From an uncultured bacterium (GTDB lineage: Bacteria; Bacteroidota; Bacteroidia; Bacteroidales; Bacteroidaceae): DNA of 64,000 bases. Shown here one piece after another: positions 35,067 through 52,700 of the stretch. Numbering within the stretch: the stretch's first letter is position 1; each line of letters begins with the position of its first letter. The notes below the pieces were generated by a model. It did no database searches, had not been told where the DNA came from, and was given only the letters and a program-made list of their open reading frames with translations. A program made the position numbers and the translations under genes. The stretch lies in contig CAMHUC010000002.1 of the NCBI GenBank assembly GCA_946188155.1, forward strand, positions 1 to 64,000, in the 5' to 3' direction.

Positions 35067-36401
35067 TCATTTAGCGTCGTCACATCGCTCAATACGGCAC
35101 GCGTGCTGTTTGCTCTCGCGGTCGTAGCTGATGCCCAACAAGAGCAGGTTGTCGGCATATTGGGCCACCTTCTCAGGATATTTCCTGCACTTGATTTGCG
35201 AGAGGGCTGTGTCGGCTGTCTGATTGTACTTCAGTTCGATAAGAGCTTCCAGCGACTTGGCCACCTGCGTCCAGTTGTTATCCTCCACGGCATTGACCAT
35301 CTCGCCGGCCACCTCGCGGTTGGGGATGTAGCACTCGCTGCGCCGCCAGTCGTAGCTCAGGTAGCCCAGATGAATGAGTACCGTCAGCACGTCATCCTTC
35401 GAGCGGATGACCGACATGTCGTTCTGAAACTTCGTCGGATTCACCTTGCACCGCCCGCCGGCCAGCATCTCGATAACGTCATCCTTCAGACCCTCGTAGT
35501 TCATCTGGATATAGCGGGCCACGGCGTCGTAGGCACCCGTCGAGGCCCAGAAGCTGGTACAGTAGCCATTGTCTATGGCCTGCATCACAGAGTTGGGGTT
35601 GAACACCGATGCCTCGTTGCCTATCTGATAGCCGTCGTACCACTTCTCCAGCTCATCGAAGTCCATACCGTATTTCGCGGCGAGGGCTCTCACCTCGTCC
35701 TTGGTGAAGCCGAAATAGCCAGCCATGCGCCGGGGCGTCACCATCGAGTACTCCTGGAAGTTGTTCAGGGCCGACTCCGTCTTATACTTCTTGACAGGCA
35801 GGATGCCCGTCATATATGCACCGGCAAAGGTCTGTTGTGTCAGCCCTCCCTTGAACATCCGACGGAGCCAGGACACATAACTGTCCATAGCCTCACTCCC
35901 CGGGGCGAACTCACGGCAGATGGCATCCCACTCGTCGATGATGAATATGAACTGTTGCTGATATTTGACCGCAATGCGGAAGAGCAATGCCATCAGATCG
36001 TCGCCCTCTTCCTGCAAAACGTCAGGATAAGCCCGCCCGATGTCCGCTCTCAGCTCGGCATCCATCTTCTGGACAATGTCATCCGTCTTATACCGTGTCA
36101 CGAAGTCGCTGAGGTCGAGATAGATGACAGGATACCTGTTCAGGTGCTTCTCAAAAGTCGGGTCAGCGGCTATCCGAAGGTCGGAGAACAAGGCCCGCGA
36201 GTCGCACGACTGGTCGTAGTAGGCGCAGAGCATCTTTGCCGCCATCGACTTGCCGAAGCGGCGGCAGCGCGTCACGCAGCTGAAACGACGCTCTGTAAAC
36301 AATGTGTCGTTCACAATAGAGATAAGCCCCGACTTATCGACGTACTCCCCATTCCTAACACTCTGGAATCCGGCATTGCCTGTATTGATGTAGTTCCCCA
36401 T
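35067..36401 (-). CDS. AAA-ATPase-like protein (PF09820 type) with internally deleted PD-(D/E)XK domain
   Basis: A 444-aa protein. The N-terminal AAA-like domain has the family features (YVDKSGLISIVN, CRRFGKSMAAKML as Walker A-like, FIFIIDEWDAI as Walker B). The C-terminal nuclease domain is cut short: after EDNNWTQVAKSLEAL the sequence jumps to IELKYNQTADTALSQIK. Full-length relatives carry roughly 80-100 residues here, including the first acidic residue of the PD-(D/E)XK site. The ELK triad end remains, so catalysis is probably lost while the frame is kept. The family is abundant in Bacteroidota and its biology is poorly known. Confidence 0.8.
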   Translation of the reverse strand: MGNYINTGNAGFQSVRNGEYVDKSGLISIVNDTLFTERRFSCVTRCRRFGKSMAAKMLCAYYDQSCDSRALFSDLRIAADPTFEKHLNRYPVIYLDLSDFVTRYKTDDIVQKMDAELRADIGRAYPDVLQEEGDDLMALLFRIAVKYQQQFIFIIDEWDAICREFAPGSEAMDSYVSWLRRMFKGGLTQQTFAGAYMTGILPVKKYKTESALNNFQEYSMVTPRRMAGYFGFTKDEVRALAAKYGMDFDELEKWYDGYQIGNEASVFNPNSVMQAIDNGYCTSFWASTGAYDAVARYIQMNYEGLKDDVIEMLAGGRCKVNPTKFQNDMSVIRSKDDVLTVLIHLGYLSYDWRRSECYIPNREVAGEMVNAVEDNNWTQVAKSLEALIELKYNQTADTALSQIKCRKYPEKVAQYADNLLLLGISYDRESKQHACRIERCDDAK

Positions 36402-36416
36402 ACCGATAATTTTTCT

Positions 36417-36448
36417 GCAAAGATAATGCTTTTTCCCGAAACGGCAAA
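36417..36448 (-). promoter_or_regulatory. Promoter of the internally deleted AAA gene
   Basis: TATCTTTGC (36417-36425) with TTTG (complement of 36445-36448) 19 bp upstream, on the minus strand. Confidence 0.65.
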
Positions 36449-36555
36449 ACTTTTCCCGCAGATAATGTCACGGGCTGTGGTATGGCATACGCCACTCTGC
36501 TATGTCTTTGGGCTTCGCCATCAACGTGCGATAACAGCGTAAAAAACAGGCTGTT

Positions 36556-36630
36556 GGACAAATTGTTTGATAGAAACGGACAAATTGTTTCATCGCGGGC
36601 ACCTTTATTTACTACGCGCGGACAATTTGA
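36556..36630 (+). promoter_or_regulatory. GGACAAATTGTTT repeats upstream of the fimbrial locus
   Basis: GGACAAATTGTTTGAT (36556) and GGACAAATTGTTTCAT (36578) are exactly 22 bp apart; a third, shorter copy (GGACAATTTGA) begins at 36620. They precede a TTTTG (36673) and a weak -7 box GAACTTTG (36698) before the DUF3575 gene. The spacing suits an AraC-type activator. The 36402-36723 gap contains nothing else apart from the two promoters. Confidence 0.5.
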
Positions 36631-36723
36631 AGTGGGGTTGCGACAAAATGTTATAAACTTCCGCTGCTGAAGTTTTGTTAATTAAACTGAAATTACGAAC
36701 TTTGCAGGCGGTATACCAATAAT

Positions 36724-37353
36724 ATGATGTCAGTAATTAAGAAATCGACCTTTCTTGGTCTGCTGCTATTGGCGACGTACCATGCCAGTGCCCAGGTGGC
36801 CTTACGCACAAATCTGGCATACGATGCTACGCTGACACCGAATCTCGGAGCGGAGATGCGGCTCGATTCGGCGTGGACCATGGGCATCAACGTGGGCCTG
36901 AACGCATGGGACATCAACAAGGCTGAGAACAAGAAGTGGCGCCACCTGCTCGTCAGCCCCAATGTGCGCCGATACTGGGGGCGCCGGACGGAGCATGCCG
37001 CACCCGACTCCCTATGGGGCATACCGCCCACGGAGAGCCGCTCCCTCCGCTATCTGGAAATGAACGCCATCTACAGCCACTTCAACGTGGGCAACACCCG
37101 CATCCCATTCGGACTATACAATGCCATCAAGGACCGACGCCTGCAGGGCGATCTGGTGGCGCTTGGCGCGAAATACGGATGGTCGTGGATCATGGCACGC
37201 CACTGGCGCATTGAGGCAGAGGCCGGCATCGCCGTCGGCTATGCCTGGTTCAAGGAGTACGACTGCGAGACCTGCGGCACCTACTACGGCCGCGGCGACC
37301 GCATCTTCCTCCTCCCTCAGTTAGGAGTTAACGTGGTGTACATCATCAATTGA
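36724..37353 (+). CDS. DUF3575 family protein (fimbrial-locus outer membrane protein)
   Basis: A 209-aa protein with signal peptide (LGLLLLATYHASAQ) and alternating strands typical of DUF3575: VALRTNLAYDATLTPNLGAE near the N-terminus, LVSPNVRRYWGR, FNVGNTRIPFGLYNAIKDRR, LVALGAKYGWSW and WRIEAEAGIAVGYAW. DUF3575 proteins often start Bacteroidota fimbrial operons and are predicted small outer-membrane beta proteins; how they help is not established. The fimbrillin-like gene follows after a decayed fragment. Confidence 0.85.
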   Translation: MMSVIKKSTFLGLLLLATYHASAQVALRTNLAYDATLTPNLGAEMRLDSAWTMGINVGLNAWDINKAENKKWRHLLVSPNVRRYWGRRTEHAAPDSLWGIPPTESRSLRYLEMNAIYSHFNVGNTRIPFGLYNAIKDRRLQGDLVALGAKYGWSWIMARHWRIEAEAGIAVGYAWFKEYDCETCGTYYGRGDRIFLLPQLGVNVVYIIN

Positions 37354-37367
37354 ATCTCTCTGTGTGT

Positions 37368-37517
37368 ATGACAATAGAACAATTGCTACAGCTTAAAGAC
37401 TTGGGCGAAGTGACCAAGGTCCAGTTCAAGGAGCGCATCATCGACAGAAATGATGTGTCCTGCGAGCTTGTCGCCTTAAGCAATGGCTGTGGTGAGTGGG
37501 CGGGAAAAGACCCATAG
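37368..37517 (+). pseudogene. Truncated Schlafen/AlbA_2 domain fragment
   Basis: A 49-codon ORF (start MTIEQLLQLKDLGE, then VQFKERIIDRNDVSCELVAL and SN) not listed in the track. It matches the start of AlbA_2/Schlafen-type ATP-binding proteins, which normally continue SNxxGGxLxxGV for hundreds of residues. Here a stop follows after 10 more codons (GCGEWAGKDP). It looks like the 5' remnant of a lost gene between the DUF3575 and fimbrillin-like genes. Confidence 0.6.
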
Positions 37518-37592
37518 TGGTAATAGATACGGAATAAACGATAGAAATGAGATAAAGAAATGAGTATTAACAATTTTAAACTTTCGAAAGTT

Positions 37593-39611
37593 ATGAAAAA
37601 GAATTTCAGATTTGCCTTGATGAGTGCGATAGCACTCGTGGGCGCAGCTACGTTTACTGCATGCTCGTCGAGCGACGATGTGGCAGATGTGAACCCGACC
37701 TACGACGGTACCTCGGTTCGCACGGACTTTGCCTTCAACATCACGAAGGCCTCTCAATCTCAGACACGTATGACGGCTACTAATGTGCAGGAGCCAACTG
37801 GGTTCCGTGGAATGCAGGATATGTATCTTTTCGCTATGCAAGGAGTACCTGGGGAGGATGGTACTACTCGTCATCAGACTTATGCATTACAAACTCTTGC
37901 TGCTAATCTTTTGGATGATGATGATGCGACTACCACTCCTTCTAGTAAAGTTTATCCTTTGACAATTCCTGTCGGAACAGACAATTTCCTATTTTATGCT
38001 CGTGCCTTACGGAATAGTGAGACAAACTTTCAGGTAGGTAAAGTTGGTTTTAATAATCTTGAAACTACTACTACTACTACTGATATTTCTTTCAACCTTG
38101 CTCCGATTGAGAAGCCATCTAGTGTTACAGCCGCCAGAAGTGTTACTGAAGAAAAGTTTGTGACTTATCTTAACAATATTGCCGGAGCACAATATAATGT
38201 GGAAAACACTTGGGCTGGTACAGTAACGAAGGCAGAAACAGACTCACGCTATTCAGGAATTGCAAAGCTTTATACTGATTTTGCTAAGCCTGTTGACGGC
38301 GAGGTGCGTTCTGGTTCTTCTGAGTCTATCATGCGTACAATTCGTGACCTTTACACCTCAATGAAAGGTATAATCGAATTGTCAAATGGCACCGATGAAG
38401 TAAGTGTGGCGATTAATGGTATCGCTGATGCCGTATGTACTGAGATTGAGTCATCTTCATCGCCGATATTCACATTGACAGCACCAACAGGTGGCTTATA
38501 TAATCAATCGGACCCCTATACGATTGCATGGGCCGGGGGTATAAATGAATGGGAAAAGAATTTCCCGGCTTCTTACGACCTGCCTATGGGTGCTGCCCAG
38601 TTGGTATGGGATTCTACAAATAAGAAAATCAAGTACAACACAAACTTCGATTACTCTCCGCAAACCGCTACATCTTCAACGTTGGGGGTAGATGTTACCA
38701 AAATTGCTTATCCTGCCGAAATACTCTATTATGACAATTCTCCCCTTCGCGCTACAGATGAGTATAAAACAGTTGCACAATACCCTACCACCACAACTCT
38801 TTGGGATGCTGAGCCTGGTAGTAAAACAGGTGCTTTCGACGGCACTTGGTTAGGAACGAGCGTACAGCCATCCACACGTGCCGTGGCCATGAAGAACAAT
38901 GTCAACTATGGCGTGGCATTGCTGGAGTCAACAGTTAAGCTGAATCCTAGTGTGACTACTACTCTTAATGACAATAGGAACGCGATTGTGGCTGGTTCTG
39001 GTAATCAGAGCTTCCCAGTATCTGGTTTGACCGAAGGTAAAGGCTTTCAGCTAACTGGTATCTTGATTGGTGGACAGCCTGGTAGTGTTAACTGGAAATT
39101 GCTTCCATCAAATGCATCATTTGATTATGCAATCTATGATAAAGACCTCGATGGCACTGGAAATTGGGTAATAAATGCAACTACATCAGAACTAACAAAA
39201 CTGTATACTGTTTGTTTCGACAATTTTGTCTCAGGAGGAGGTGCCCAGAAAGAGGTTTGCATAGCTTTGGAGTTTAAGAACAATATGGGTGTTGATTTTT
39301 ATGGTGCCAAGAACATGATTCCTGCTGGAAACACATTCTATTTGGTAGGAAAGCTGCAAGTAACTGCTAGCAGTAGCTCCCCCGGCACATGGAAGAGTGA
39401 CTATCCAACTGGCTACCGTGTATCTGAATCTGCAACTCCACGAGTATTTGGCCAGGATCACAAGACTGTTGTTACCTTTAATTTGAATGAAAATTCACTT
39501 AAGGCAGCTTATAGTACTATTCCTGACCTGCGTTCTACCGAGATGCTGTTCGGTCTGTCAGTTGATTTGCATTGGAAGAGTGGCCTGACATTTGATATAG
39601 ATCTTCAGTAG
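37593..39611 (+). CDS. Fimbrillin-like lipoprotein, candidate major fimbrial subunit
   Basis: A 672-aa lipoprotein from ATG 37593 (MKKNFRFALMSAIALVGAAT, lipobox FTAC/S near residue 24); the track starts 11 codons earlier at an in-frame ATG. The N-terminal region contains the Prevotella fimbrillin-like phrase FRGMQDMYLFAM. The C-terminal half shares blocks with the 42884 gene (RAVAMKNNVNYGVALLESTV, FQLTGILIGGQ, VCIALEFKNNMGV) and ends in alternating strands (VDLHWKSGLTFDIDLQ) suited to donor-strand assembly. Position beside DUF3575 and FimB/Mfa2 genes supports a structural fimbrial role. The gene is clearly AT-richer than its neighbours. Confidence 0.72.
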   Translation: MKKNFRFALMSAIALVGAATFTACSSSDDVADVNPTYDGTSVRTDFAFNITKASQSQTRMTATNVQEPTGFRGMQDMYLFAMQGVPGEDGTTRHQTYALQTLAANLLDDDDATTTPSSKVYPLTIPVGTDNFLFYARALRNSETNFQVGKVGFNNLETTTTTTDISFNLAPIEKPSSVTAARSVTEEKFVTYLNNIAGAQYNVENTWAGTVTKAETDSRYSGIAKLYTDFAKPVDGEVRSGSSESIMRTIRDLYTSMKGIIELSNGTDEVSVAINGIADAVCTEIESSSSPIFTLTAPTGGLYNQSDPYTIAWAGGINEWEKNFPASYDLPMGAAQLVWDSTNKKIKYNTNFDYSPQTATSSTLGVDVTKIAYPAEILYYDNSPLRATDEYKTVAQYPTTTTLWDAEPGSKTGAFDGTWLGTSVQPSTRAVAMKNNVNYGVALLESTVKLNPSVTTTLNDNRNAIVAGSGNQSFPVSGLTEGKGFQLTGILIGGQPGSVNWKLLPSNASFDYAIYDKDLDGTGNWVINATTSELTKLYTVCFDNFVSGGGAQKEVCIALEFKNNMGVDFYGAKNMIPAGNTFYLVGKLQVTASSSSPGTWKSDYPTGYRVSESATPRVFGQDHKTVVTFNLNENSLKAAYSTIPDLRSTEMLFGLSVDLHWKSGLTFDIDLQ

Positions 39612-39770
39612 TGTTACCTCTCAGTGGTAGCTGGCACGTCAGTGCCGTCCCCCATTGAGATGAGTAAATAGCAATCGTTCTTTGACTTATTGACACCCCC
39701 TAAGCATACAGGATGCAGGAACGGCCCGGCAGCGGGCGAAGAAATCCGTCCGGATGTTTGGCCGTTTCTG

Positions 39771-39863
39771 CACTTATTCGTATCTTTGAGCATCGCCCGA
39801 AGATACTTTCGCTCGGAAATACTCAAATAAATTTGGTGTTTCGCCCGCTTATTCGTATCTTTG
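39771..39863 (+). repeat. Duplicated promoter segment (TTATTCGTATCTTTG twice)
   Basis: TTATTCGTATCTTTG occurs at 39774-39788 and again at 39849-39863. The second has TTTG (39832-39835) 20 bp ahead and is a complete promoter for the following AAA/nuclease gene. The sequence in between (GAAGATACTTTCGCTCGGAA and onward) has the look of a dispersed Prevotella intergenic repeat. Confidence 0.6.
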
Positions 39864-39878
39864 CACAAAAATCAGAGT

Positions 39879-41459
39879 ATGATGAAATATCCCATTGGTG
39901 TACAAAGTTTCGAGACCCTCCGTCAGGGAGGGTTTGTGTATGTGGACAAGACCGACCTGGTCTATAAGCTGGCCCAGGGACACATCTACTTCCTTGCCCG
40001 TCCGCGCCGCTTCGGCAAGAGCCTGCTGCTGAGCACGCTGAAGTGCTACTTCGAGGGGCGCAGGGATCTCTTCGAGGGCCTGAAGATGATGGAGCTGGAG
40101 CAGGAGTGGGTGAAGTATCCCGTGTTCAGCTTCGACTTCAACCGGTTAGAGAAACCTGCCGACCTGCGGGAGTACATCCGGCTGTCGATAGAGGAGTGGG
40201 AGAAGGAATACCCGACGGACACCATCCCCGAGAACCTGTCGCTGCGCTTCAGCCGCCTCATCGAGAATGCGCACAAGAAGACAGGGCGGCGCGTGGTGGT
40301 GCTCATCGACGAGTACGACAAGCCGCTGCTCGACCTGATGGAGACGGGCAATCCCGACGACGAGAGCCTGATGGCCGAGAACCGCAGCTTCCTGAAGAGC
40401 TTCTTCTCGGTGTTCAAGGCTGCCGACGACCACCTGCGCTTCGTGATGCTCACGGGCATCACCAAGTTCTCGCAGGTATCGATGTTCAGCGGCTTCAACC
40501 AGCCGGACGACATCTCGCTTGATAAGCGGTATGACACGCTGCTTGGCATCACGGAGCAGGAGTTGTATTCCGTTTTCGCGGAGTCAATCCGTGAGTTGGC
40601 AGATGCCTGGCAGAGTAGTGAGGCGGAAGTGAAGCAGCGGCTGAAGGCCCGCTACGACGGCTACCACTTTAGCGAGCGACTGATAGATGTATATAACCCG
40701 TTCAGCCTCATCAACGCCTTTGCCAAGCTGCAGCTGAAGGACTTCTGGTTCACCTCGGGCACGCCTTCATACCTTGTCCGGCTCTTATCAGGCCGCAAGG
40801 AGGAAATGATGCAGTACACCGGCCGCTACTATAATGAGACGATGTTTGTGGACTACAAGGCCGACAAGGCCAAGCCCCTGCCGATGATATTCCAAGGCGG
40901 CTATCTGACCATCAAGGGCTACAACAAGCAGTTTAACTCCTATCTGCTCGACTATCCGAACAATGAGGTGCGGCAGGGTTTCATAACGCTTCTGGCCAAC
41001 AACTATCTTCAGCCTGCAGAAGATGCGTCATCGTGGGTTCAGGAATTCGTGATGGCACTTCAGGAGGCCGATACCGACCAGATGCGCCGTCTGCTGACCA
41101 GTTTTCTGGCCGAGACACCCTACGCCATGCGGCCGAAGAAGGATCAGAAGGACCGCGAGCTGTACTTCCACTACACGTTCTACCTGATCATGCGGCTCAT
41201 CTCGTGCTACACCGTCTATACGGAGAAGCAGCTCAGCGAGGGCCGGGCCGACTGCATCGTGGAGACCTCGCAGCAGGTCTACATCTTCGAGTTCAAGCTC
41301 GACGGCACGGCCGACGAGGCCCTGCAGCAGATCCATGACCGGGGCTACGCCAAGGCATACGAGGCCGACGGTCGGCCTATATATATAATAGGTGTTAGCT
41401 TCTCGAGCAAGACGGGCACCATCGAGGAGTGGAAAGCTGAAGCGAAGAGTGAAAAGTGA
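39879..41459 (+). CDS. AAA-ATPase-like/PD-(D/E)XK nuclease family protein (PF09820/PF08011 type), intact
   Basis: A protein of about 526 aa. ATG 39879 (MMKYPIGVQSFETLR) is chosen over the TTG at 39861, which lies inside the promoter. The AAA-like domain has FVYVDKTDLVYKLAQ, FLARPRRFGKSLLL and VVVLIDEYDKPLL. The C-terminal nuclease retains GRADCIVETSQQVYIFEFKL, that is D...E-x-K, and QIHDRGYAKAY, so the catalytic core is complete. It carries its own promoter and terminator and sits between the fimbrillin-like gene and the FimB/Mfa2 gene, so it appears inserted in the fimbrial operon. The cellular role of the family is unknown. Confidence 0.85.
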   Translation: MMKYPIGVQSFETLRQGGFVYVDKTDLVYKLAQGHIYFLARPRRFGKSLLLSTLKCYFEGRRDLFEGLKMMELEQEWVKYPVFSFDFNRLEKPADLREYIRLSIEEWEKEYPTDTIPENLSLRFSRLIENAHKKTGRRVVVLIDEYDKPLLDLMETGNPDDESLMAENRSFLKSFFSVFKAADDHLRFVMLTGITKFSQVSMFSGFNQPDDISLDKRYDTLLGITEQELYSVFAESIRELADAWQSSEAEVKQRLKARYDGYHFSERLIDVYNPFSLINAFAKLQLKDFWFTSGTPSYLVRLLSGRKEEMMQYTGRYYNETMFVDYKADKAKPLPMIFQGGYLTIKGYNKQFNSYLLDYPNNEVRQGFITLLANNYLQPAEDASSWVQEFVMALQEADTDQMRRLLTSFLAETPYAMRPKKDQKDRELYFHYTFYLIMRLISCYTVYTEKQLSEGRADCIVETSQQVYIFEFKLDGTADEALQQIHDRGYAKAYEADGRPIYIIGVSFSSKTGTIEEWKAEAKSEK

Positions 41460-41533
41460 AGAGTGAATAATTTCTTGCCGTGCAAGCGTCGCAAAGCGCC
41501 GGGCGGATACCGCTGTAGAGATAGGCGGAGAAG

Positions 41534-41562
41534 GGGGGCAGGCTTTATCAGTCGCCCCCTTT
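41534..41562 (+). terminator. Terminator after the intact AAA/nuclease gene
   Basis: GGGGGC (41534-41539) and GCCCCC (41554-41559) form a stem followed by TTT. Confidence 0.5.
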
Positions 41563-41614: not shown

Positions 41615-42724
41615 ATGAATTGTAGGAAGTGGAACATAGGCAGAATGGTGGTGAGTGCAGCCCTGGGGGCTGTGCTCACAGGCTGCGGTATGATCGATGA
41701 GGACTTGTCCGACTGTGGCAAGGAAGCCACGGTGGACTACGAGGTGCAGTTAGTGACGAACATGAGTCTGGAGCTGGAGCTACAGCTCGACGCGCAGACC
41801 GACAAGGAGATCATGGACCTGCTGCGCCAGTACATGTCGCGCATCTTCACGGATCACGCCCACGACGTAGACCTCTCGTTCTATGAGACCCAGGGCGACT
41901 CTGCCCGTCTGCTCCACGACCAGCATATCATGGATGCCAACCAGCGCCGCTATGTGCTCCACTTGCCCATCCACGAATACCAGCACCTGGCAACGGCCAA
42001 TCTGGTGGACAACGCCATGGTGAGCCTGGCGGGCGATGAGCGCTGCCATCGCTCGCAGCTGCTGCAGCAGAAGGGCGACACCATCACTCCCCATACCACC
42101 GGCCTCTTTACGGCCCGACTGCCGATGCAGCTGGTGGAGGGCGTTGACCAGACGTTCTACGTGCGCCTCTACATGGCCAACTGCGCCTCGGCACTGGTGG
42201 TGGACCCGCGCCGCTTCAAGGCCGATGACATCCGCGTGGTGGCCTCGGGCTTCGCCTCGCGGTATCAGATCTGCGATAGTTCCTTCGTGTTCGACACCGC
42301 CGCACCAGTCATTGCTACCGACAGGCTGACGGCCAAGACCGACCCGAGGGTATGCTACTGCACGGTGAACTTCCCGTCGAGGGAGGCTGGACAGACGCGC
42401 TCCGGCCATGCTGCTGTCGGGGATTTGCACTCTGTTGTCGGGGATTTGCAATCCCCGACCCGCACCGTCATCGAGACCCAGGAGCCCTTCGTGGCCCAGC
42501 CCGGCGAGCAGTCGCTGTGGGAGTACCGCGTCTACGTGACGAATGCCGACGGCACGGTGACGGAGAGCATCGTCGGCATACGCGAGCCCCTGCGTGCCGG
42601 CCAGCTGAAGATCATCCAGGTGTGGATAGGCGACGACGGCCGCGTCAACAGCGAGTCGCCCGAGGTGGGTGTCAGCGTGACGCTCGACTGGAAGCCGGGC
42701 AATACGTATGAGCCGGAGATATAA
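41615..42724 (+). CDS. FimB/Mfa2-family fimbrial anchor lipoprotein
   Basis: A 369-aa lipoprotein (signal then lipobox LTGCG near residue 24). The start MIDEDLSDCGKEATVDYEVQ and the phrase DLSFYETQ.. match FimB/Mfa2 proteins, which anchor and limit the length of FimA- or Mfa1-type fimbriae in the outer membrane. The C-terminus is QVWIGDDGRVNSES...VSVTLDWKPGNT. A strange stretch (about residues 266-284, HAAVGDLHSVVGDLQSPTR) is encoded by an inserted palindromic repeat. ATG 41615 follows AGGAGGG by 14 bp; the nearer ATGs run into a stop. Confidence 0.85.
   Translation: MNCRKWNIGRMVVSAALGAVLTGCGMIDEDLSDCGKEATVDYEVQLVTNMSLELELQLDAQTDKEIMDLLRQYMSRIFTDHAHDVDLSFYETQGDSARLLHDQHIMDANQRRYVLHLPIHEYQHLATANLVDNAMVSLAGDERCHRSQLLQQKGDTITPHTTGLFTARLPMQLVEGVDQTFYVRLYMANCASALVVDPRRFKADDIRVVASGFASRYQICDSSFVFDTAAPVIATDRLTAKTDPRVCYCTVNFPSREAGQTRSGHAAVGDLHSVVGDLQSPTRTVIETQEPFVAQPGEQSLWEYRVYVTNADGTVTESIVGIREPLRAGQLKIIQVWIGDDGRVNSESPEVGVSVTLDWKPGNTYEPEI
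42413..42459 (+). repeat. In-frame palindromic repeat inside the FimB/Mfa2 gene
   Basis: GTCGGGGATT and AATCCCCGAC form a perfect 10-bp stem with a TGC loop (42437-42459). A half copy (CTGTCGGGGATTTGCACTCT) lies immediately before. The repeat keeps the reading frame and adds the VGDL...VGDLQ residues. Confidence 0.65.
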
Positions 42725-42883: not shown

Positions 42884-44533
42884 GTGAGTGAAGTGAAGAG
42901 ACATATTGGATTGTTGCTGTTGTCCGTGCTGGCATTGGCCATCACGGGCTGCAAGGACTATGAGGCTGACAATCTGAGCCGCGAGCCAGTCAGTGTGCAG
43001 TTTGCCTTTTCACTATCCTCCACCCGTGATGGCTCCCATACCCGACAGTCCGATGGTGTTGTGAGCAATACAGCGGTGGAAATTCTGAAAATCGTCCCGA
43101 TGCGTGGCGGGGCTATTGACGACTCCGAAGTGTCCAACTTGGTTGAGGTAGTCGATAAAACGGGCCCGGCGAAATTTTATCGCTATGGTTACTGCAATAT
43201 GCAGCCGGGCGTGGACGGCTGCCTGGTGTATGCCAAGGCAACGGATGAGGGCGGCTTAGAGGCGACACTCCCCGAAGAAGTGACATCTACCGACGACATC
43301 TCCTTTGCGCCGACGACTATCTATAACTATACAACGGCTCCAGCTGATGGCGAAGCCTGGGATATAGCGGAAGCCCTGACGGCCGTTGCAAATACCGGAG
43401 GGTGGTCGACCACAACCAATACCACGCTCAAGAACCTTTATAACAACTTTATCAACCACGGCTACGACCTGCCAGGCTCTGCTGCCAGTGTGATGGCATG
43501 GATTAAAGCACTGAAAGAGGAGGCGGGGAAGATGAGTGGGTTGTCTGGAACTGATGAGACCCTCAGAGGGACTTTAGCCAAGATAGCCATTCCGACGACA
43601 TTGCCGAACTATCCGCAATCCGTTGGACTGCCCGACGGTGCGGCAGCCCTGAGATGGACAACGTGGACTGATGGACAGGGGAAGCATACCGGCTTTATGC
43701 CCCAGCTGCAGACCACCACCATCGACAACATCAACACCGTGTCGCGCTTCGCCTATCCTCCTGCGAAATACTATTTCGTTAATAGCTCCATCAAATCATC
43801 GGATACGCCCGTTGATCTGGCGTCCCTATACAATACTAATAATACATGGGAAGGGGTGCTGCAAAACTTTCCCATTGAGGGAGTCACTGATGCTTCCAGA
43901 GCCATCGCCCTCAAAGATCCGGTGCAATATGCGGTGGCTCAGCTGAACATGACGGTGAAAGCCAGTGCATCGCCGCTGAAGGATGACAATTCTGCTGATG
44001 TCACCCTCGGAACAGAAGTCTTCCCTCTACGGGGTATCATCGTCGGCGGCCAGCGCGCTGCCGACTACAAGTTTGAACCCGTAAGCAATTCTGACGCCAA
44101 CGTGAAGTTCGTTTACGACCATCAGGGCATGGACGGCAGGTATCTCACCACCACAGCTACTGCCGCCACTAGCACACTCGTTCTGCAGAGTTACGACGGT
44201 GAGGACGTGTTGATTATCCTGGAGTTTGAGAACAAGAGCGGTCAGGCGTTCAAGTGCGTTGACGGCATAGTCTATCCCGATACCCGCTTTTACCTGATAG
44301 GGCGGGTTAGTCCCGACGATTTTGTCGTCTCCATAGCGCCAGATGTCCTTCCAGAAGGAGCAAAAGACCGCGTGTTCACCAAAGACTACATCACGACGGT
44401 GAATATGACGGTGACGTCGCTGGCGAAGGCATACAATGTGCTGCCCAACCTGCTGACGAAGAATCTGGAGATAGGCGTGGAGACCACTCCGCAGTGGGTA
44501 GCCGCCACGCCGACCCCCGTGCATTTGAATTAG
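42884..44533 (+). CDS. Fimbrillin-like lipoprotein, second subunit
   Basis: A lipoprotein of about 549 aa (signal HIGLLLLSVLALAI, lipobox ITGC/K). There is no ATG; GTG 42884 or GTG 42893 must be used. The C-terminal half shares order and wording with the 37593 gene: RAIALKDPVQYAVAQLNMTV, FPLRGIIVGGQRAADYKFEP, DVLIILEFENKSGQAF and a final strand region. It follows the FimB/Mfa2 gene on the same strand, so a structural or accessory subunit is likely. The N-terminal part differs from the first subunit. Confidence 0.7.
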   Translation: MSEVKRHIGLLLLSVLALAITGCKDYEADNLSREPVSVQFAFSLSSTRDGSHTRQSDGVVSNTAVEILKIVPMRGGAIDDSEVSNLVEVVDKTGPAKFYRYGYCNMQPGVDGCLVYAKATDEGGLEATLPEEVTSTDDISFAPTTIYNYTTAPADGEAWDIAEALTAVANTGGWSTTTNTTLKNLYNNFINHGYDLPGSAASVMAWIKALKEEAGKMSGLSGTDETLRGTLAKIAIPTTLPNYPQSVGLPDGAAALRWTTWTDGQGKHTGFMPQLQTTTIDNINTVSRFAYPPAKYYFVNSSIKSSDTPVDLASLYNTNNTWEGVLQNFPIEGVTDASRAIALKDPVQYAVAQLNMTVKASASPLKDDNSADVTLGTEVFPLRGIIVGGQRAADYKFEPVSNSDANVKFVYDHQGMDGRYLTTTATAATSTLVLQSYDGEDVLIILEFENKSGQAFKCVDGIVYPDTRFYLIGRVSPDDFVVSIAPDVLPEGAKDRVFTKDYITTVNMTVTSLAKAYNVLPNLLTKNLEIGVETTPQWVAATPTPVHLN

Positions 44534-44538
44534 AATAT

Positions 44539-45696
44539 ATGCAGATGAGACATATCTATAGACATATTGGATGGCTGACGGGCTGCATGCTGATGCTGCT
44601 CCTGGCGGTGGGCTGCTCCTCTGGCTCTGAGGATGCGGAGAGTCCGCTGCCTAAGGAGAAGCCCGTGCTCAAGGTGTACGTCTTCGCCCCTGAGAAACCC
44701 ATCGTCACCCGTGCTGACATCGGCAACGTGGATGCCTCAGCCGAAGAGGCTGCCATCAACACGCTCGATGTCTGGGTGTTCGAAACGGGCACAACGACCC
44801 TCGTCGGCCATGTCCATCAGTCTAATATCTCATGGGATGGCCAGAAGGAGGTGGCCATCAACGTCAGCGACGATTTTGCCAGCCGCAAGCCCAATGTGGA
44901 CATCTACGTCGCGGCCAATGCCGACGCTGCCGGTCTGGCGCTCGGAGCCACATCTACTGCCTCGGCTTTGGAATCCGCCATAATAGCGAGCGACTACTTC
45001 GGCCTAACCAGTCCTGTCAGCTCCGTACCCGTAGAGGGGCTGCCGATGTCGGGCCTGCTGAAGGATCAGGCGGTCACGGACACCTCGCCCGTCTATGCCG
45101 TCACGCCGAGGGTCAAGCTCGTTCGCGCCGTGTCGAAGGTGCGCTTCATCTTCACTAAGTCGGTAAGCGTGGCCAATGATGAGAGCCTGAAGGTGAACAG
45201 TATCTCCCTCAACGGCGGCGTGCTGCCCAAGCAGGAGTACCTCTTCAATAGTAGTGACAATGTGGTTGCCGACAACTATGAGACAGCAGCGGCCACGCTC
45301 GTCTCGGAGGTCAGTGGCGACGCTATTAATTCCTGCGACAACCCTTCTATATATATATATAAGGTGGAGCAGACTGGTCAAGAGTATGAGAACAAGATTA
45401 ACGATGGACTCGAGGAACATGTCGTGGAAGACGTGACCACCCCCGCCGCTCTCTCCGAGCTTGGGCGCTTCTACCTGCGTGAGTCCGACAAGAAGCTCGC
45501 CGGCACTATCAGCTTCACCTCGGAGGGCACAGCGAAAAGCACTACCTTTGAGATGGCAGAAGCCGGCGACTTCTCGCGAAACCACACCTGGATAGTATAC
45601 GCCTACTTTCTGGGAGGAGGTGAGCTGAAGGTGAATGTAGTGAACGTGAAGAGCTGGACGGCTCAAGACGGGACGCATGCCATTTATAATTGGTAG
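44539..45696 (+). CDS. FimA/Mfa-type accessory fimbrillin lipoprotein
   Basis: A protein of about 385 aa from ATG 44539 (MQMRHIYRHIGWLTG); the track start at 44494 lies in the previous gene. The lipobox is LLLAVGC/SS. The N-terminal domain shows the P. gingivalis FimA-type pattern EEAAINTLDVWVFETGT and INVSDDF...VDIYVAAN, with IVTRAD before it. The C-terminus YAYFLGGGELKVNVVNVKSW is fimbrillin-like. It starts 5 bp after the previous stop, so it is in one transcript and probably forms part of the tip complex. Confidence 0.72.
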   Translation: MQMRHIYRHIGWLTGCMLMLLLAVGCSSGSEDAESPLPKEKPVLKVYVFAPEKPIVTRADIGNVDASAEEAAINTLDVWVFETGTTTLVGHVHQSNISWDGQKEVAINVSDDFASRKPNVDIYVAANADAAGLALGATSTASALESAIIASDYFGLTSPVSSVPVEGLPMSGLLKDQAVTDTSPVYAVTPRVKLVRAVSKVRFIFTKSVSVANDESLKVNSISLNGGVLPKQEYLFNSSDNVVADNYETAAATLVSEVSGDAINSCDNPSIYIYKVEQTGQEYENKINDGLEEHVVEDVTTPAALSELGRFYLRESDKKLAGTISFTSEGTAKSTTFEMAEAGDFSRNHTWIVYAYFLGGGELKVNVVNVKSWTAQDGTHAIYNW

Positions 45697-45705
45697 CGAG
45701 CTGGA

Positions 45706-45738
45706 TAGTGAATAGTGAATAGAGAATAGTGAATAGAT
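45706..45738. repeat. Heptanucleotide repeat (ATAGTGA) at a start codon
   Basis: ATAGTGA ATAGTGA ATAGAGA ATAGTGA then ATAG. The last GTG is the only usable start of the next gene; the two earlier GTGs read into TAG after four codons. Confidence 0.65.
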
Positions 45739-46766
45739 TAAGAGCGATAGAAAGATGGACGTGCCGCTGCCTGCTGACAGGCTGCCTGCTGAACCTGTTG
45801 GCCTGTTCCGACGAGCAGGATACGCAGAACGGCGCACAGCCCGACGGCAACCTGCGGCTGGCTGCAGTCACCCGTGCCGGCGAGGACTACTACCCCCTTA
45901 CAGAATACGGGAGCCGGATTGGCCTGATCATCGCCACAGCGGATGGCATCGCGAGCAGCAACGGTGTTTTCAGCTATGCCGATGCGGCCTGGTCATCGAC
46001 AGCATCCGTCAGGGAGAATACACAATACTACATCTACGGCTACCTGACAAACACGAACACCTCGGGCATCACCACTACTCCCACTAAGCCTGCCGGGGGC
46101 GACTTTTCCGGGGGTGCCGACTTGGCACTCAGCGGCCTGCCCGTCATCACCGGCGACGATATCTGCATCATCGTGGGCGTGGAGAAGGTCAACAGCATGA
46201 ATGCACCATGGAATGTCACCGAGGGCAGCTACGGCTATCTCTCTACGACTGCCGACGAGAACTACGTCAACCTGCTGCTCGACCACCTGTACACGAAGTT
46301 CACCCTGCAGTTCTGCATAGGCTCGGTGTATGCCGAACTGCGCGAGATACGACTGAAGACCGTCAAACTGTCTACTACTTCGGGCGAAACGGCCAGTGCT
46401 GTGGTCAGCCTCAGAAGCGGCTTCGGCATAGGCACGCCGGTATTTACTCTTTCCAATGGCAGCTTCGACTTCGACATGCTCCCTGAGGAAAAGCTCCTGA
46501 CGACCACCCCTGCCTTAACGGGCACCACGGCATACTGCGTACCCAATATTTTCGAAGGCTCGACGCTCAAGCTCACCAGCACCTACGACGTGTATGACCG
46601 CAAGGGTAACAAGATTGCTGAACGGACGGCGGAGAACAAGATAGCAGTCACAGGTATGGCCCCCGGCAAAAGCTGCCAGCTGACGCTCACCGTGGAGCCT
46701 ACCTATTTATATATATTGTCTGACGACGACCTCGACAACCCCGAGGTGAAATTGACAAGTGAATAG
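45729..46766 (+). CDS. Fimbrillin-family accessory lipoprotein
   Basis: A 345-aa lipoprotein (CLLTGCLLNLLAC/SD). No in-frame ATG precedes the signal peptide, so the GTG at 45729, which belongs to the heptad repeat, is the start. The N-terminal domain has an AVTRAGEDYYP strand after the signal and a body of strands (YYIYGYLTNTN, DICIIVGVEKVN, LYTKFTLQFCIGSVYAELRE). The order after two fimbrillin-like genes and before the giant T9SS protein resembles mfa4 in P. gingivalis mfa clusters, but the sequence alone does not prove orthology. Confidence 0.65.
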   Translation: MNRLRAIERWTCRCLLTGCLLNLLACSDEQDTQNGAQPDGNLRLAAVTRAGEDYYPLTEYGSRIGLIIATADGIASSNGVFSYADAAWSSTASVRENTQYYIYGYLTNTNTSGITTTPTKPAGGDFSGGADLALSGLPVITGDDICIIVGVEKVNSMNAPWNVTEGSYGYLSTTADENYVNLLLDHLYTKFTLQFCIGSVYAELREIRLKTVKLSTTSGETASAVVSLRSGFGIGTPVFTLSNGSFDFDMLPEEKLLTTTPALTGTTAYCVPNIFEGSTLKLTSTYDVYDRKGNKIAERTAENKIAVTGMAPGKSCQLTLTVEPTYLYILSDDDLDNPEVKLTSE

Positions 46767-46770
46767 AGAC

Positions 46771-49700
46771 ATGCTGATGAAGATATATTCTGACCATAAT
46801 ACGATAAACACCAGGCGATGGGTGATAGTACTGTCACTGCTCGTCTGCCATCTCTCATGCGGCTTTGCGCAAATAAAGATTGGCGGCAACGTCTACGGCG
46901 GCGGAAATGAGGGCGACACTGGCGGCAGCACCAGTGTCACCGTGCGTGCCGGCGACTTTAATGGTGCCGTCTTCGGCGGTGCCCGTCAGGCTAATGTAGG
47001 CGGGTCTGCCTTCGTCAACATCGACGGAGAGCATATCAGTGGCGACATCACCATCAACTACGTCTATGGCGGCAACGACATCTCCGGCAACGTGGGGGAA
47101 AAGGTGACTGCTAACGATGACCTGCCCGTTGCCCTGACCACCCCGCCGACGGGCAAGACTCAGGCCCACGTGGTGGAGTATGGTCTCACTACCAACACTG
47201 GCGGCGATGCGGGCAAGAACACCCAGGCATACAATGCCTTCATACTCACCACCCCGGAGCGCTCTGTCACTACCAGCGGCGAGGGTGACGCCACCACCAC
47301 ATCCACGTACCAAATCTTCATCGGACAGATGTTCGGCGGCGGCAACGGTGCATACGACTACACCTCAGAACCCTATAAGGGCATGCAGCTACCCGAAGTG
47401 AAGCGCACCTATCAGGAGCTGCGAGGCGGAACGTTCGGCTATGTCTATGCCGGTGGCAATAATGCCACCGTCACCGACAAGGCTGACATCTGTATCGACA
47501 ATAGCAGCACCATTACCACCGCGACCGATGCCCTTGTGGTGAAAGACTATACCAAGCCGGAGAATATCAGTGGCGGCGTTGGCAGTGCTGTCGACCAGCG
47601 CCTGATGAGCATGGGGCTCAACCTCTCTACGTTCAACAACGACCACCAGTTCCTGCGTGTATTCGGCGGCAACAACAAGGCCGACATGCACATACGGCCC
47701 ACGTGGCACCTGCAGCAGGGCGACATCGAGAATCTCTATAGCGGCGGCAACGAGGGGCGCATGACCGCTACCGAAGGCATACTCTTGGAAATCAATCCCC
47801 AGGGAAAAGACGAGGAGAAGATGAAGCTGAAGGTGGAGAATGTGTTCGGCGGCTGCCGCAGGGCCGATGTGTGCCCCACTACCGACGTGGACGGCAAGAC
47901 CCCGGTAACGAGTGTGGCGAACCTCAGCGGCTATAGATTCCCTCCCAATCTGGCAGCCCGCGTACTGGTGCGCGGCGGCGACATCACCAATGTGTATGGC
48001 GGCAACGACATCTCCGGAAAGGTCTATTTCGGCAATGCCTTGGGCGTATATACCAGTATCAAGGGCGATATCTATGGCGGCGGCAACGGCTCATACGCCT
48101 ATACCGACAACCCAGACCTGAAGGACGACCTCATCTGGGGCGACTTCTATTACGATAAAGGCGATGATTCTGCCAAGGCCCTTAATGCCAACCGCCCCAA
48201 TGCCGAGCAGGTATCCATCCGTGTGGCTGGTGAGGCCGACGCCAAGGGGACGATGAAGAGGCAGGTAATCATCGGCGGTAGCATCTACGTGGGTGGCAAC
48301 AGCGCCACGCTGAAGCCGGATCCCGTCCATGCCAGCCTTCCCAACTATCCGATGGCAGAGCTGAAGATAGGCTCCTACGTCATTGCCGACAAAGTGTTCT
48401 TGGGAAACAACGGCGAGGAGATGATCTCGCGTGACGTGCTGGAGCAGTATGTCGGTACCGTGACGGGAGCCAACGCCACGGCGACGACCAGCGACAAGCA
48501 CGACTTCAGCTCGCTTGACCTGACCGATGAGGCCGTCTTTGCAGAGTATATGAACGGCTGCGCCATGGACATGATGCCACAGGTGGTGTTCGACGACTCC
48601 ACCAGGACTTCCAACCCCGACCCTGCCACCTACATCGACTACTCATCCTATTTCGGCTCCTTCTTTTGCGGCGGCAACGTGGGCAGCATGACAAAGGATG
48701 GTAAGGAAATCATAGACTTCAGCCATCCCGTCATCATCTTCGACAAGCTTGTCGGCGGATGCAACAATGCCTTTGTCTATCCTGTTGCCAAAGTGGGCGG
48801 CGGCTATCTGAATGCAGCCTATAACGGCGGCCTCACGGGCGACCCCGACGACAGCGGTGTCAAGCTACAGCTCGACCTGGAAGGGCTGAAGATACAGCCG
48901 AAGCGCTGGAAGGATGAGACCGACAAGACGCAAGGCTTGGAGTGGAACACCTACGTTGATGATACCGAGAATGTTATTGCTGATAATGCGGGAATAGGCG
49001 TTGCTTCAGACGATGACAAGAACCGCCGCTTCCGTGGCGGCAACGTCTATGGGGGCTGCTATGAGAGCGGCCACGTTAACGGCGACGTTGTCATCAACAT
49101 CAACGGCACCATCATCGACCGCGAGGGCGAGCATGGCGTGTTCGATACCGTCACAGAGGATGCCGAAGGCGAGGGCATCCTCTATGACGACACCCAGTTC
49201 CACATCACCGAGCGCCGCTCCGGCGTCATCCTCGACCAGCAGGGCATGGACGTGCTCGGCTCTGCCCTGAGTGTGTTCGGCGGCGGCTACGGCAAGGACT
49301 CCGAGATATGGGGCAGCACCACCGTCAACCTCAACAAGGGCTATGTGTTCCAGATCTTCGGCGGCGGCGAGATGGGGGCTATCGGCAAGGGCACGCGCAA
49401 CGAGACCACTCACAAGTTAAACGATAGTTCATATTCATATAATGCCGCCTACAGCACCACCATCAACCTGCATGGCGAGGTGGCCGGCGTGTCGAAGGGC
49501 GTCACGCTGACTGACGCCCAGGAGGCGATGCTCGCCGAGGCGGAATTCATCTACGGCGGCGGCTTCGAGGGCCTCATTAGCGGCGACACCCACATCTACC
49601 TTGGCAACGGCCGCGTGTTCAACACCTTCGCCGGCTCGTGCAACGCCGACATCCTCGGACATACCGAGACCTACGTGGGTAAGGGCAAGAATGCCAACGG

Positions 49701-52700
49701 CACCGTCGTTGCCGGCTTCCCTTGGGTGCGTGACCACGTCTATGGCGGCAACGACCTCGGTGGGCGCATACGGGGCTCCGCCAGCTTCAGCGGGAAGCTG
49801 AGCGACTTTGCTCAGGGCAAGAGCTATTCCTCCGCCGTGGCCGCCCCCACCACTGCCTCCGCCTATATGGAGTACACGCAGGGCCGCGTGGACCGCATCT
49901 TCGGCGGATGCTATGGCGACTATGACTACATCACGGCGACGGACAATCCGTTCAACAACGACAAATACTCCTTTGAGACCTACCAAGGCAGCGAAACCCA
50001 CACCTATGGCATCAAGTATTTCAAGCCCTACCTGAACAATGCCTTCGTCAACATCATACCGACGAGCAATGCCAACAACGCCATCTCGATGGTGTTCGGC
50101 GCCGGACAGGGCATCAGCGGCGACCGCGACGGCGACGACATGCAGGACCGCAGCTACGTGCTCATCGACATTCCGCAGACCCAGGAGAAATTCAAGGGGC
50201 TTGAGGTATTCGGTGCCGGAGCCTACGACGGCCTCGGCATGCGCTTCGACCCAGCCAACGACAGCGAGAAGGTGACCACCGCCAACAGCGACAAGGCGAC
50301 GGCCATCGTCGACCTGGTACGTGGACAGATAGCCGCCGCCTATGGTGGCAGCTACAACGAGGGCATCACCCGCCGCACGATGGTCAACGTGCCCGCCGGC
50401 TCCACCATCCGCTTAGGCAGCATCTTCGGAGGGGCCTACGGCAACAACACCTTCAAACCCTGCGACGTCTACGAGTCGCACGTGGAATACCACAGTGCCG
50501 ACGCCTGGCTGATATGCAACCCGTTGAGGCTGGATGACGACGGCAACACGATTGGTGACAGGCGCATGAAGGGAGCCATCTATGGCGGCAACAACAACGA
50601 GCGGCGCACTATCTATGCCAAAATCAACGTCGACGTGAAGGTGAACCAGGATCACTGGAAGAATGGCGCCACCACCGGCAACATCTATGGCGCGGGATGC
50701 GGTGCCAACACCTGGGCCGAATATACCGAGGTAAACCTCAACAGCGGCGCAGAGGTCTACGAGGTCTACGGCGGCGGCGAGGCCGGAAAGGTGTTCAATA
50801 CGCTGAGCGTGGAGAAGTATATGCAGAAGTACAAGGATACCCCGCCAGATGGTGTCGTCGTCGATGGCGACTGGGCTACTGTGTGGCCGGCTGCCTGGAC
50901 GTTCGGGAGATACTATACCCCCAATGCAGCCTTTGATAATTACAGGGCTAACGACTTGACCAGCCTCAACAATACCGACCTGGTGACACGTGCCGCCTTC
51001 GACGACCGCACCACCAAGACATACCCTTACCGCTACAACACCAACGTGCTTATCCGCCGGGGAGCCCTGGTCAACAACTATGCCTACGGCGGCGGCCTCG
51101 GTGCGGATGCCAAGATCTGCGGGTCTACCTACATCGCCCTGCTCGGCGGCACGGTGAAGAAGGACTTGTATGCCGCCGGCACCAGTGGCGCCGTGCAGGA
51201 CTGGCTCGACGACCAGCGCTTCACAGCCAGTGCCAACGCTTACGTGGCGGGGGGAACGGTGCGCAATGTCTACGGCGGCGGATGGGAAGGCAGCGTGGGC
51301 CACCACGAGGGAGCCATTGAGAACGACCCCTCTGGCGACAGCCTCGGCGAGACGCACGTCGTCATCGGCATACGCCGGGACCAGCCCGACAACCAGCTTA
51401 TCGACGACCTGACATACGCTAAAGGTAGCAAAGCCACGGTTGACGACTACGGCCTTTACTACGGCGTGCCGGCCATCCAGCGCAATGCTTACGGAGGCGG
51501 CGAGGGCGGCGCCGTATTCGGCACCACCAGCATCACGCTGAACAACGGATACATAGGCTACGTCTATTCTGACAGCGAACCCGAGGACAAGACGATTCCT
51601 TACGTCAATATCTACGATGGCTACTATCAGGAGAAACTGCACGACGAGACATGGACGGACCACGTCGGTGAGAACCGCTTAGAGGGCAGTGGCAACTTGT
51701 TCGGCGGCGGCTACGTGGACAACAGCAGTGTAGACTTCACCAACGTCACCATGTATGGCGGACTGGTGCGCAACAGCCTCTTCGGCGGCGGCGAGATTGC
51801 GGCTGTGGGAAGAGGAAAAGTGAAAGCGGGAGGCTATCAGAACAGTGAGCGCAACTACATAGGCACCACCAAGCATGGCAAGACCACGGTGACGATGTAC
51901 AAGGGACACGTGCAGCGCGACGTCTTTGGCGGCGGCAAGGGCTACGACAACTTGGGCAAGGTGGGTACGCTCTATACCGACGGCTACGTGTTCGGACAGA
52001 CCGAGGTGCGCATACGCGGCGGCGAGGTGGGCACGGCCACCAACTATGCCGACGGCTACGGCAACGTGTTTGGAGGCGGCGACATCGGCTACGTCTACGG
52101 CCTGGGGACGGCCGACGAGGCGGGCGAGAAGCCATCGCCCGACCACTATTACTATATAGGCTATCGATGCAAGGCGGCATACGGTACGTATAAGGCCGGC
52201 GACGTCATCGCCAAGCAAGACTATGACAAGTTCGGCGACGGCGACAAGAGCAAATGGGAAAAGGTGTGGACGGAGGATGTCAAGGTGGTGGTGGAACCCT
52301 ACGCACAGGTGACAGACGCCGGCGGCGTGACCATCGACGGCACAGCCTACCCCCAATACAGCTATGTGCCCACCGACGTGCTGAACAAGCTGAAGGGCAA
52401 GAACGACGTAAGCGATGGAGCCACGTGGAACAATCTCGACGACAGTGGCGTCATCATCCATAACGCCGTGTTCGCCGGCGGCAACATCGCCGTGGGCAGC
52501 GACAAGGTGTATGCCAATGCCGTCACCGTGTTCGGCAATGTCACCGCATCGCTGCGCGACATCTACCGCCGCGACCTCATCACCATCGGCACCGAGCATA
52601 TCGGCGGACTGTACGGTGGCGGCAACCTGTCGCTCGTCAACGGCTACCGCGAGATGCACATCTCCAACTACGGCACCGACTACTACGGGCTGTCGCAGGA

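Follow-up and report, generated by a model that had tools for sequence, protein, structure and literature searches.

Probable replacement of the mature part of a fimbrillin-like subunit by recombination in a modular fimbrial locus of rumen Prevotella

Introduction

The fimbrial loci of Porphyromonas gingivalis are the closest described systems to the one analyzed here, a FimA/Mfa1-type (type V pilus) operon made up of a DUF3575 gene, a stalk-like subunit, an Mfa2/FimB-like anchor and further subunits, which lies in a stretch of 64,000 nucleotides (hereafter the window) from an uncultured bacterium of the Bacteroidaceae (assembly GCA_946188155.1, contig CAMHUC010000002.1, positions 1 to 64,000 of the forward strand). 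Through natural competence, strains of P. gingivalis swap whole fimA alleles that sit between near-identical flanks, the fimCDE genes can move as well, and the locus has been called modular (PMC3953592). This exchange takes place within one species and was demonstrated by transformation, and no hybrid genes were detected (PMC3953592; PMC5266723); genome surveys found the same fim mosaic (PMC5266723). In the Mfa1 fimbriae of the same species, the subunit genotypes 70A, 70B and 53 pair with types of accessory genes that may differ from their own, and mature Mfa1 begins after a conserved arginine (Arg49) that is cleaved by gingipain (PMC10201998). The DUF1703 proteins, which combine PF09820 and PF08011 and whose role is unknown, form a multi-copy expansion in Cardinium (PMC6387759).

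In the window, the mature part of the subunit was probably for the most part replaced by homologous recombination with another Prevotella lineage, the other slots of the locus being exchanged independently and the genes on either side of the subunit, a Schlafen remnant and an AAA/nuclease gene, being separate insertions. As in P. gingivalis, the major-subunit gene before fimB varies while both flanks are conserved, and there is a second recombining region (fimCDE in that species). Conserved flanks around a differing subunit were found in related loci, and the subunit has a discordant history; exchange of a complete allele was not found. Judged from the sequences, the case would thus work like the fimA exchange and depart from it only in the feature of a complete allele without hybrids. 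It also differs in setting, since the exchange is between Prevotella species, is deduced by comparison, has its breakpoints inside the gene past the pro-segment, and extends to FimB and DUF3575. For P. gingivalis, both the exchange of alleles and the modular nature of the fim locus are already published, and rumen Prevotella is a further case.

A composition break inside the subunit gene

The host assembly comprises 3.9 Mb, with the window on its contig 2, and its named relatives within the genus are rumen Prevotella. The genes that carry the main evidence are the following, where GC3 is the G+C content at third codon positions and ORF an open reading frame.

36724..37353, + strand: DUF3575 outer-membrane-type protein, short class, 209 aa (PF12099, 1e-41)
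37593-39611, + strand: subunit gene, whole ORF (the ORF listing begins at 37560)
37593..37751, + strand: 5' part of the subunit gene, of native composition, with signal peptide, lipobox Cys24 and pro-segment (GC3 0.66, change-point p = 0.002)
37752..39611, + strand: rest of the subunit gene, AT-rich (GC3 0.35), taken as the exchanged part, its 3' limit without signal
41615..42724, + strand: FimB/Mfa2-like anchor gene (Foldseek, Mfa2 5nfi 1e-7, FimB PG0181 4rdb 1e-6)

The preliminary description of this DNA had called the subunit gene AT-rich beside its fimbrial neighbours, and rightly so: its GC and GC3 are 0.44 and 0.38, against 0.59 and 0.77 for DUF3575 and 0.62 and 0.83 for FimB, and its GC3 stands at the 4th percentile among 169 ORFs of the window genome. 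It had also proposed that the whole gene was a cassette, and this is ruled out by a change-point within the gene. The GC3 shifts from 0.66 to 0.35 at codon 53 (37752), 159 bp inside the gene (synonymous-codon permutation, p = 0.002), therefore the foreign-looking part is the mature protein and not the signal peptide and pro-segment.

A composition of this kind could be thought to arise without any transfer, if a fast-evolving, highly expressed surface protein had turned AT-rich and divergent in place by codon usage and selection. Indeed, in 60 of 64 relatives the gene before FimB is AT-richer than both genes beside it (mean difference in GC3, dGC3, of -0.17 with a standard deviation of 0.12; the window subunit, at -0.42, is the extreme of the compared loci), and GC3 is likewise lower in ribosomal proteins (0.64) than in the genome sample (0.71). 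However, the codon choice at two-fold sites, AT-ending in the subunit, is opposite to that of ribosomal proteins, and the break within the gene is abrupt. The codon adaptation index of the subunit lies at the 27th percentile, its codon preferences are unlike those of ribosomal protein genes, and its GC3 does not correlate with residue conservation. Expression-driven codon usage as the source of the low GC3 was ruled out against 21 ribosomal protein genes.

Mosaic subunit genes in related loci

Related loci in the compared genomes carry L-numbers and the genomes G-numbers (L085 is from G138); WIN is the window. In five pairs of loci, FimB is 97-99% identical and the subunit 41-53%, and DUF3575, where present, is 87-91% identical; this is the picture of conserved flanks around a varying gene that had been predicted for related strains, here between related species. 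The nucleotide identity drops from about 0.95 to about 0.5 within the gene and recovers near the stop. L048, L052 and L088, which come from three different species-level genomes, share 98-99% identity in FimB, 87-91% in DUF3575 and 48-53% in the subunit; the values for FimB and the subunit are 97 and 44% in L053/L099, and 99 and 41% in L095/L184.

Among L048, L052 and L088 the nucleotide identity is about 0.9-1.0 through the first ~190 bp of the subunit gene and about 0.5 in the core, then rises again (up to 1.00) near the stop and stays high through FimB. Third-position identity at conserved residues is 0.89-0.90 in the N part, 0.46-0.50 in the core, 0.77-1.00 in the C part and 0.96-0.98 in FimB, the silent sites being saturated only between the breakpoints. 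The 5' breakpoints fall at codons 68-76, just past a conserved arginine (codon 61 there) and near the position of the window break (codon 53, Arg59), and the 3' ones about 22 codons short of the stop. Point mutation cannot produce near-identical flanks around a saturated core; replacement can. Saturation confined to the core makes divergence in place hard to keep for these three loci, and we regard it as unlikely in general. Breakpoints within the subunit gene were also found in L053/L099, where, as in L095/L184, the 5' breakpoint is closer to the subunit start.

Conflicting gene histories

Downstream of the anchor, the locus continues with three genes.

42884..44533, + strand: Fim2, second fimbrillin-like gene, with which the co-inherited downstream block begins (32% amino acid identity with the subunit's C-terminal half)
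44539..45696, + strand: FimA3, FimA-family gene (PF06321, 8.5e-8; weak match to the FimD model, under its cut-off)
45729..46766, + strand: Fim4, fourth small fimbrial gene (order conserved among relatives)

The flanking genes of the window are nearest to those of L159, with identities of 71% for DUF3575, 61% for FimB, 52% for Fim2 and 55% for FimA3, against 38% for the subunit. The subunit is nearest to that of L085 (47%), a locus in which DUF3575, FimB, Fim2 and FimA3 are 40, 44, 47 and 48% identical to those of the window. Tree tests reject both joins: WIN with L159 in the subunit tree (difference in log-likelihood 164), and WIN with L085 in the FimB tree (p 0.007), in which WIN groups with L159 and L042 (97/95). 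The different nearest relatives of the subunit and its flanks, together with these rejections, support an exchange.

The conflict is not confined to the window. In FastTree trees of the 40 loci that have all five genes, most pairs of genes disagree in 71-90% of their well supported splits, with the exception of Fim2 and FimA3, for which only 2 of 21 supported splits conflict. Since the splits of Fim2 and FimA3 agree, these two genes travel together, and DUF3575, the subunit and FimB each have a separate history. The claim that the subunit slot is exchanged by recombination thus holds insofar as the core is swapped while the flanks stay, but the restriction to the major-subunit slot does not: on the evidence of the trees, DUF3575, FimB and the downstream block recombine too. 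L039 and L095 illustrate the reverse case, with DUF3575 42% identical and the remaining genes 81-85%, and in G090 SecY is 96% identical and FimB only 49%. The SecY species tree is incomplete, several genomes having either no SecY or two, and the genomes of L159 and L166 yielding none.

Tandem subunit paralogues offer another explanation that needs no exchange between lineages, by differential loss or by gene conversion from a paralogue, nearby or distant, in the same genome, and two or three tandem fimbrillin genes do precede FimB in L093, L108, L046, L047 and L103. The window genome, however, has no second close copy, its only clear other match being Fim2 at 32%, the composition is foreign to that genome, and the mosaics retain identical flanks and ends. 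We find this origin improbable, as we do divergence in place.

Several points nevertheless weigh against an exchange in the window. Part of the AT-richness of the subunit is usual for the gene across the genus, so that its low GC alone is weak evidence, no 3' change-point was detected in the subunit gene (p = 0.62), and long branches in the FimB and subunit trees call for caution. The composition break, the discordant histories and the breakpoints of the relatives are observed directly; the window's own exchange is not seen as a mosaic, and we infer it from composition and trees because no close relative shares the window flanks at high identity. The clear swaps moreover come mostly from metagenome assemblies, in which chimeric joins remain to be excluded, and since the breakpoints lie in conserved stretches, the mosaics might be assembly chimeras joined at conserved gene ends. 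This is slightly less likely still than the two preceding alternatives: several loci show the pattern independently, one of the two partners in L095/L184 is the record of a named Prevotella lacticifex strain, both cores would have to exist between the same ends, and the composition break and tree conflict of the window are independent of those pairs.

Proposed course of the exchange

Under replacement by homologous recombination, DNA from another Prevotella lineage, the putative donor, would have entered by uptake or conjugation and been recombined with the help of RecA, with most of the mature part of the subunit being replaced. One crossover would lie in the conserved signal peptide and pro-segment (first 50-70 codons, to about the invariant Arg59) and, in the relatives, the other in the conserved last ~22 codons. 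The same process would exchange DUF3575, FimB and the Fim2-FimA3 block independently, whereas the Schlafen remnant and the DUF1703-type AAA/nuclease gene would be separate insertions into intergenic gaps. Arg59 may be the cleavage site in maturation, and the replaced part may alter antigenicity.

More tentatively, rumen Prevotella species could share a circulating pool of mature pilin segments, exchanged precisely from the end of the pro-segment (near the maturation arginine) up to the last C-terminal strand. The signals for secretion and assembly would then remain native while the exposed part is foreign, and the family would be an undescribed fimbrillin with a helical insert. The data would extend the picture of modular, exchangeable fimbriae from P. 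gingivalis to commensal Prevotella of the rumen and beyond the limits of one species, and they suggest that crossovers fall between the pro-segment and the core and again ahead of the last strand.

Identity of the subunit and of the anchor

The subunit has no sequence match in Pfam, NCBIfam or the Protein Data Bank (PDB), and none of 32 relatives matches Pfam or the PDB significantly. The family is nevertheless widespread in the genus, with matches in 105 of 398 sampled genomes, and the analysis flags it as unannotated. The protein has the lipoprotein precursor traits of a stalk protein, namely an N-terminal pro-segment, Cys24 (68 of 70) and Arg59 (67 of 70), both residues being invariant among the 32 relatives. 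As to the two-domain fold of fimbrillins, its fold matches in the PDB are weak (best E 0.009, TM about 0.12), and most of the top 10 are Bacteroidales adhesins or fimbrillins. We call it fimbrillin-like because of its position before the anchor, the lipobox Cys24, the invariant Arg59 and these weak fold matches. With Mfa1 it shares the mixing of subunit and accessory types and a conserved arginine, here Arg59, a candidate cleavage site; unlike Mfa1, to which it has no match in the three databases, it contains a predicted helical segment (residues 178-286).

The assignment of the anchor is firmer. A PDB sequence search gave no match for it either, but Foldseek finds Mfa2, FimB and other Bacteroidales adhesins, PF08842 was found in 4 of 21 relatives, and the gene directly follows the stalk gene as in type V pilus loci.

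Probable neighbouring insertions and other features

The order of the fimbrial operon is kept across the genus. In the window it runs DUF3575, Schlafen-type remnant, AT-rich subunit, AAA-ATPase_like/PDDEXK_9 gene, FimB/Mfa2-like anchor, Fim2, FimA-family gene and Fim4, the remaining features being these.

35067..36401, - strand: upstream AAA-ATPase_like, weak PDDEXK_9 gene (PF09820 3e-24, PF08011 0.008)
37368..37517, + strand: N-terminal remnant, 49 codons, of an AlbA_2/Schlafen-type ATP-binding protein gene
39781-39788 and 39856-39863, + strand: two -7 boxes TATCTTTG, the downstream one within a recurrent promoter module
39879..41459, + strand: inserted AAA-ATPase_like + PDDEXK_9 (DUF1703-type) gene (PF09820 2e-64, PF08011 1e-24)
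41531..41562, + strand: G+C-rich hairpin 3' of the AAA gene, possible weak terminator

The fragment before the subunit had been described as a decayed Schlafen gene, which is borne out: its 49 codons, followed by a stop, match the start (first 42 residues) of genes of ~540 aa with 56-60% identity (E about 1e-9 to 1e-10). One of these genes carries SLFN_AlbA_2 and HATPase_c_4; the remnant on its own has no Pfam match. The gap between DUF3575 and the subunit measures 239 bp in the window versus about 20-50 bp in relatives with the same DUF3575 class.

The inserted AAA gene has native composition (GC3 0.81) and the DUF1703 build, an N-terminal PF09820 and a C-terminal PF08011 both above the curated cut-offs. 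It had been credited with its own promoter and terminator. The promoter is present: a -7 box of the Bacteroidetes type, TAtcTTTG, lies in a module that recurs in front of many genes. The terminator is plausible only, the T run after the hairpin being short. The gene has about 40 relatives in the window genome, which contains 45 PF09820 matches in 3.9 Mb. Several of these stand in tandem and are nearly identical in their domains (e.g., on contigs 4, 10 and 39), and none of 14 control genomes exceeded the cut-off. The two-domain build and the multi-copy expansion recall the DUF1703 proteins of Cardinium, with the difference that one copy here interrupts a fimbrial operon; the family is not known to be linked to fimbriae.

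The gene is missing from the gap between subunit and FimB in nearly all relatives. G032 has a copy in the same slot, which is the sister of the window copy (88/98) and possibly its orthologue. The same gap holds a Y1_Tnp transposase with palindromic repeats around it in L121 (10366-11196), a RAYT-like (transposase-like) ORF in L166 (7292-8896) and a remnant in L184, the latter two recognized by motif only. Around the AAA gene there are no terminal repeats and no target duplication above 6 nt. Compared with 84-92% identical copies in the same genome (L208, L209), the upstream AAA gene is missing about 250 bp of its interior, and its similarity to them is confined to gene and promoter.

The AAA/PDDEXK_9 gene, together with the Schlafen gene, might be thought to drive the exchange as an element that is mobile or promotes recombination. 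This is very unlikely, for although the AAA gene is multi-copy, has its sister in the same slot of G032 and shares that slot with transposase-type genes elsewhere, neither gene adjoins the subunit in the clearly swapped loci, terminal repeats and a target duplication were looked for in vain, and the upstream gene resembles its copies only in gene and promoter. A role of the two genes as cassette edges or machinery is likewise not supported, as they are absent from the swapped loci and the gap between subunit and FimB also collects a Y1 transposase elsewhere. Both look like incidental insertions tolerated in intergenic gaps.

The promoter module (roughly AAATAAATTTGGT...TTATTCGTAYCTTTGCA; 39781-39863 in the window, L221-L241) recurs in the window genome with 80-90% identity over 40-90 bp, before many unrelated genes, among them a cysteinyl-tRNA synthetase-like gene, a YchF-like GTPase, and TonB-type, AAA and AlbA_2 genes. 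A boxA-like stretch, GCAATCGTTCTTTGACTTATTGACA, occurs 3' of the subunit at 39671-39696; similar stretches follow the subunit in L166 and L184 and occur elsewhere in the genome.

A phase-variable locus with an invertible promoter was considered and rejected, the region around the operon promoter (36380-36760) having only imperfect inverted repeats with arms of 10-11 nt. DUF3575 is single-copy in the window genome; in the genus it has a short form (~200 aa) and a long form (~520 aa, with a C-terminal OmpA domain; e.g., L085:7793-9361), which many relatives have, and even close loci can differ in form (L039 and L095). An ORF of 4011 aa (46759-58794), 3' of the fimbrial genes, has many GGN/YGGG-type repeats and no Pfam match, and is possibly a giant adhesin or tip protein.

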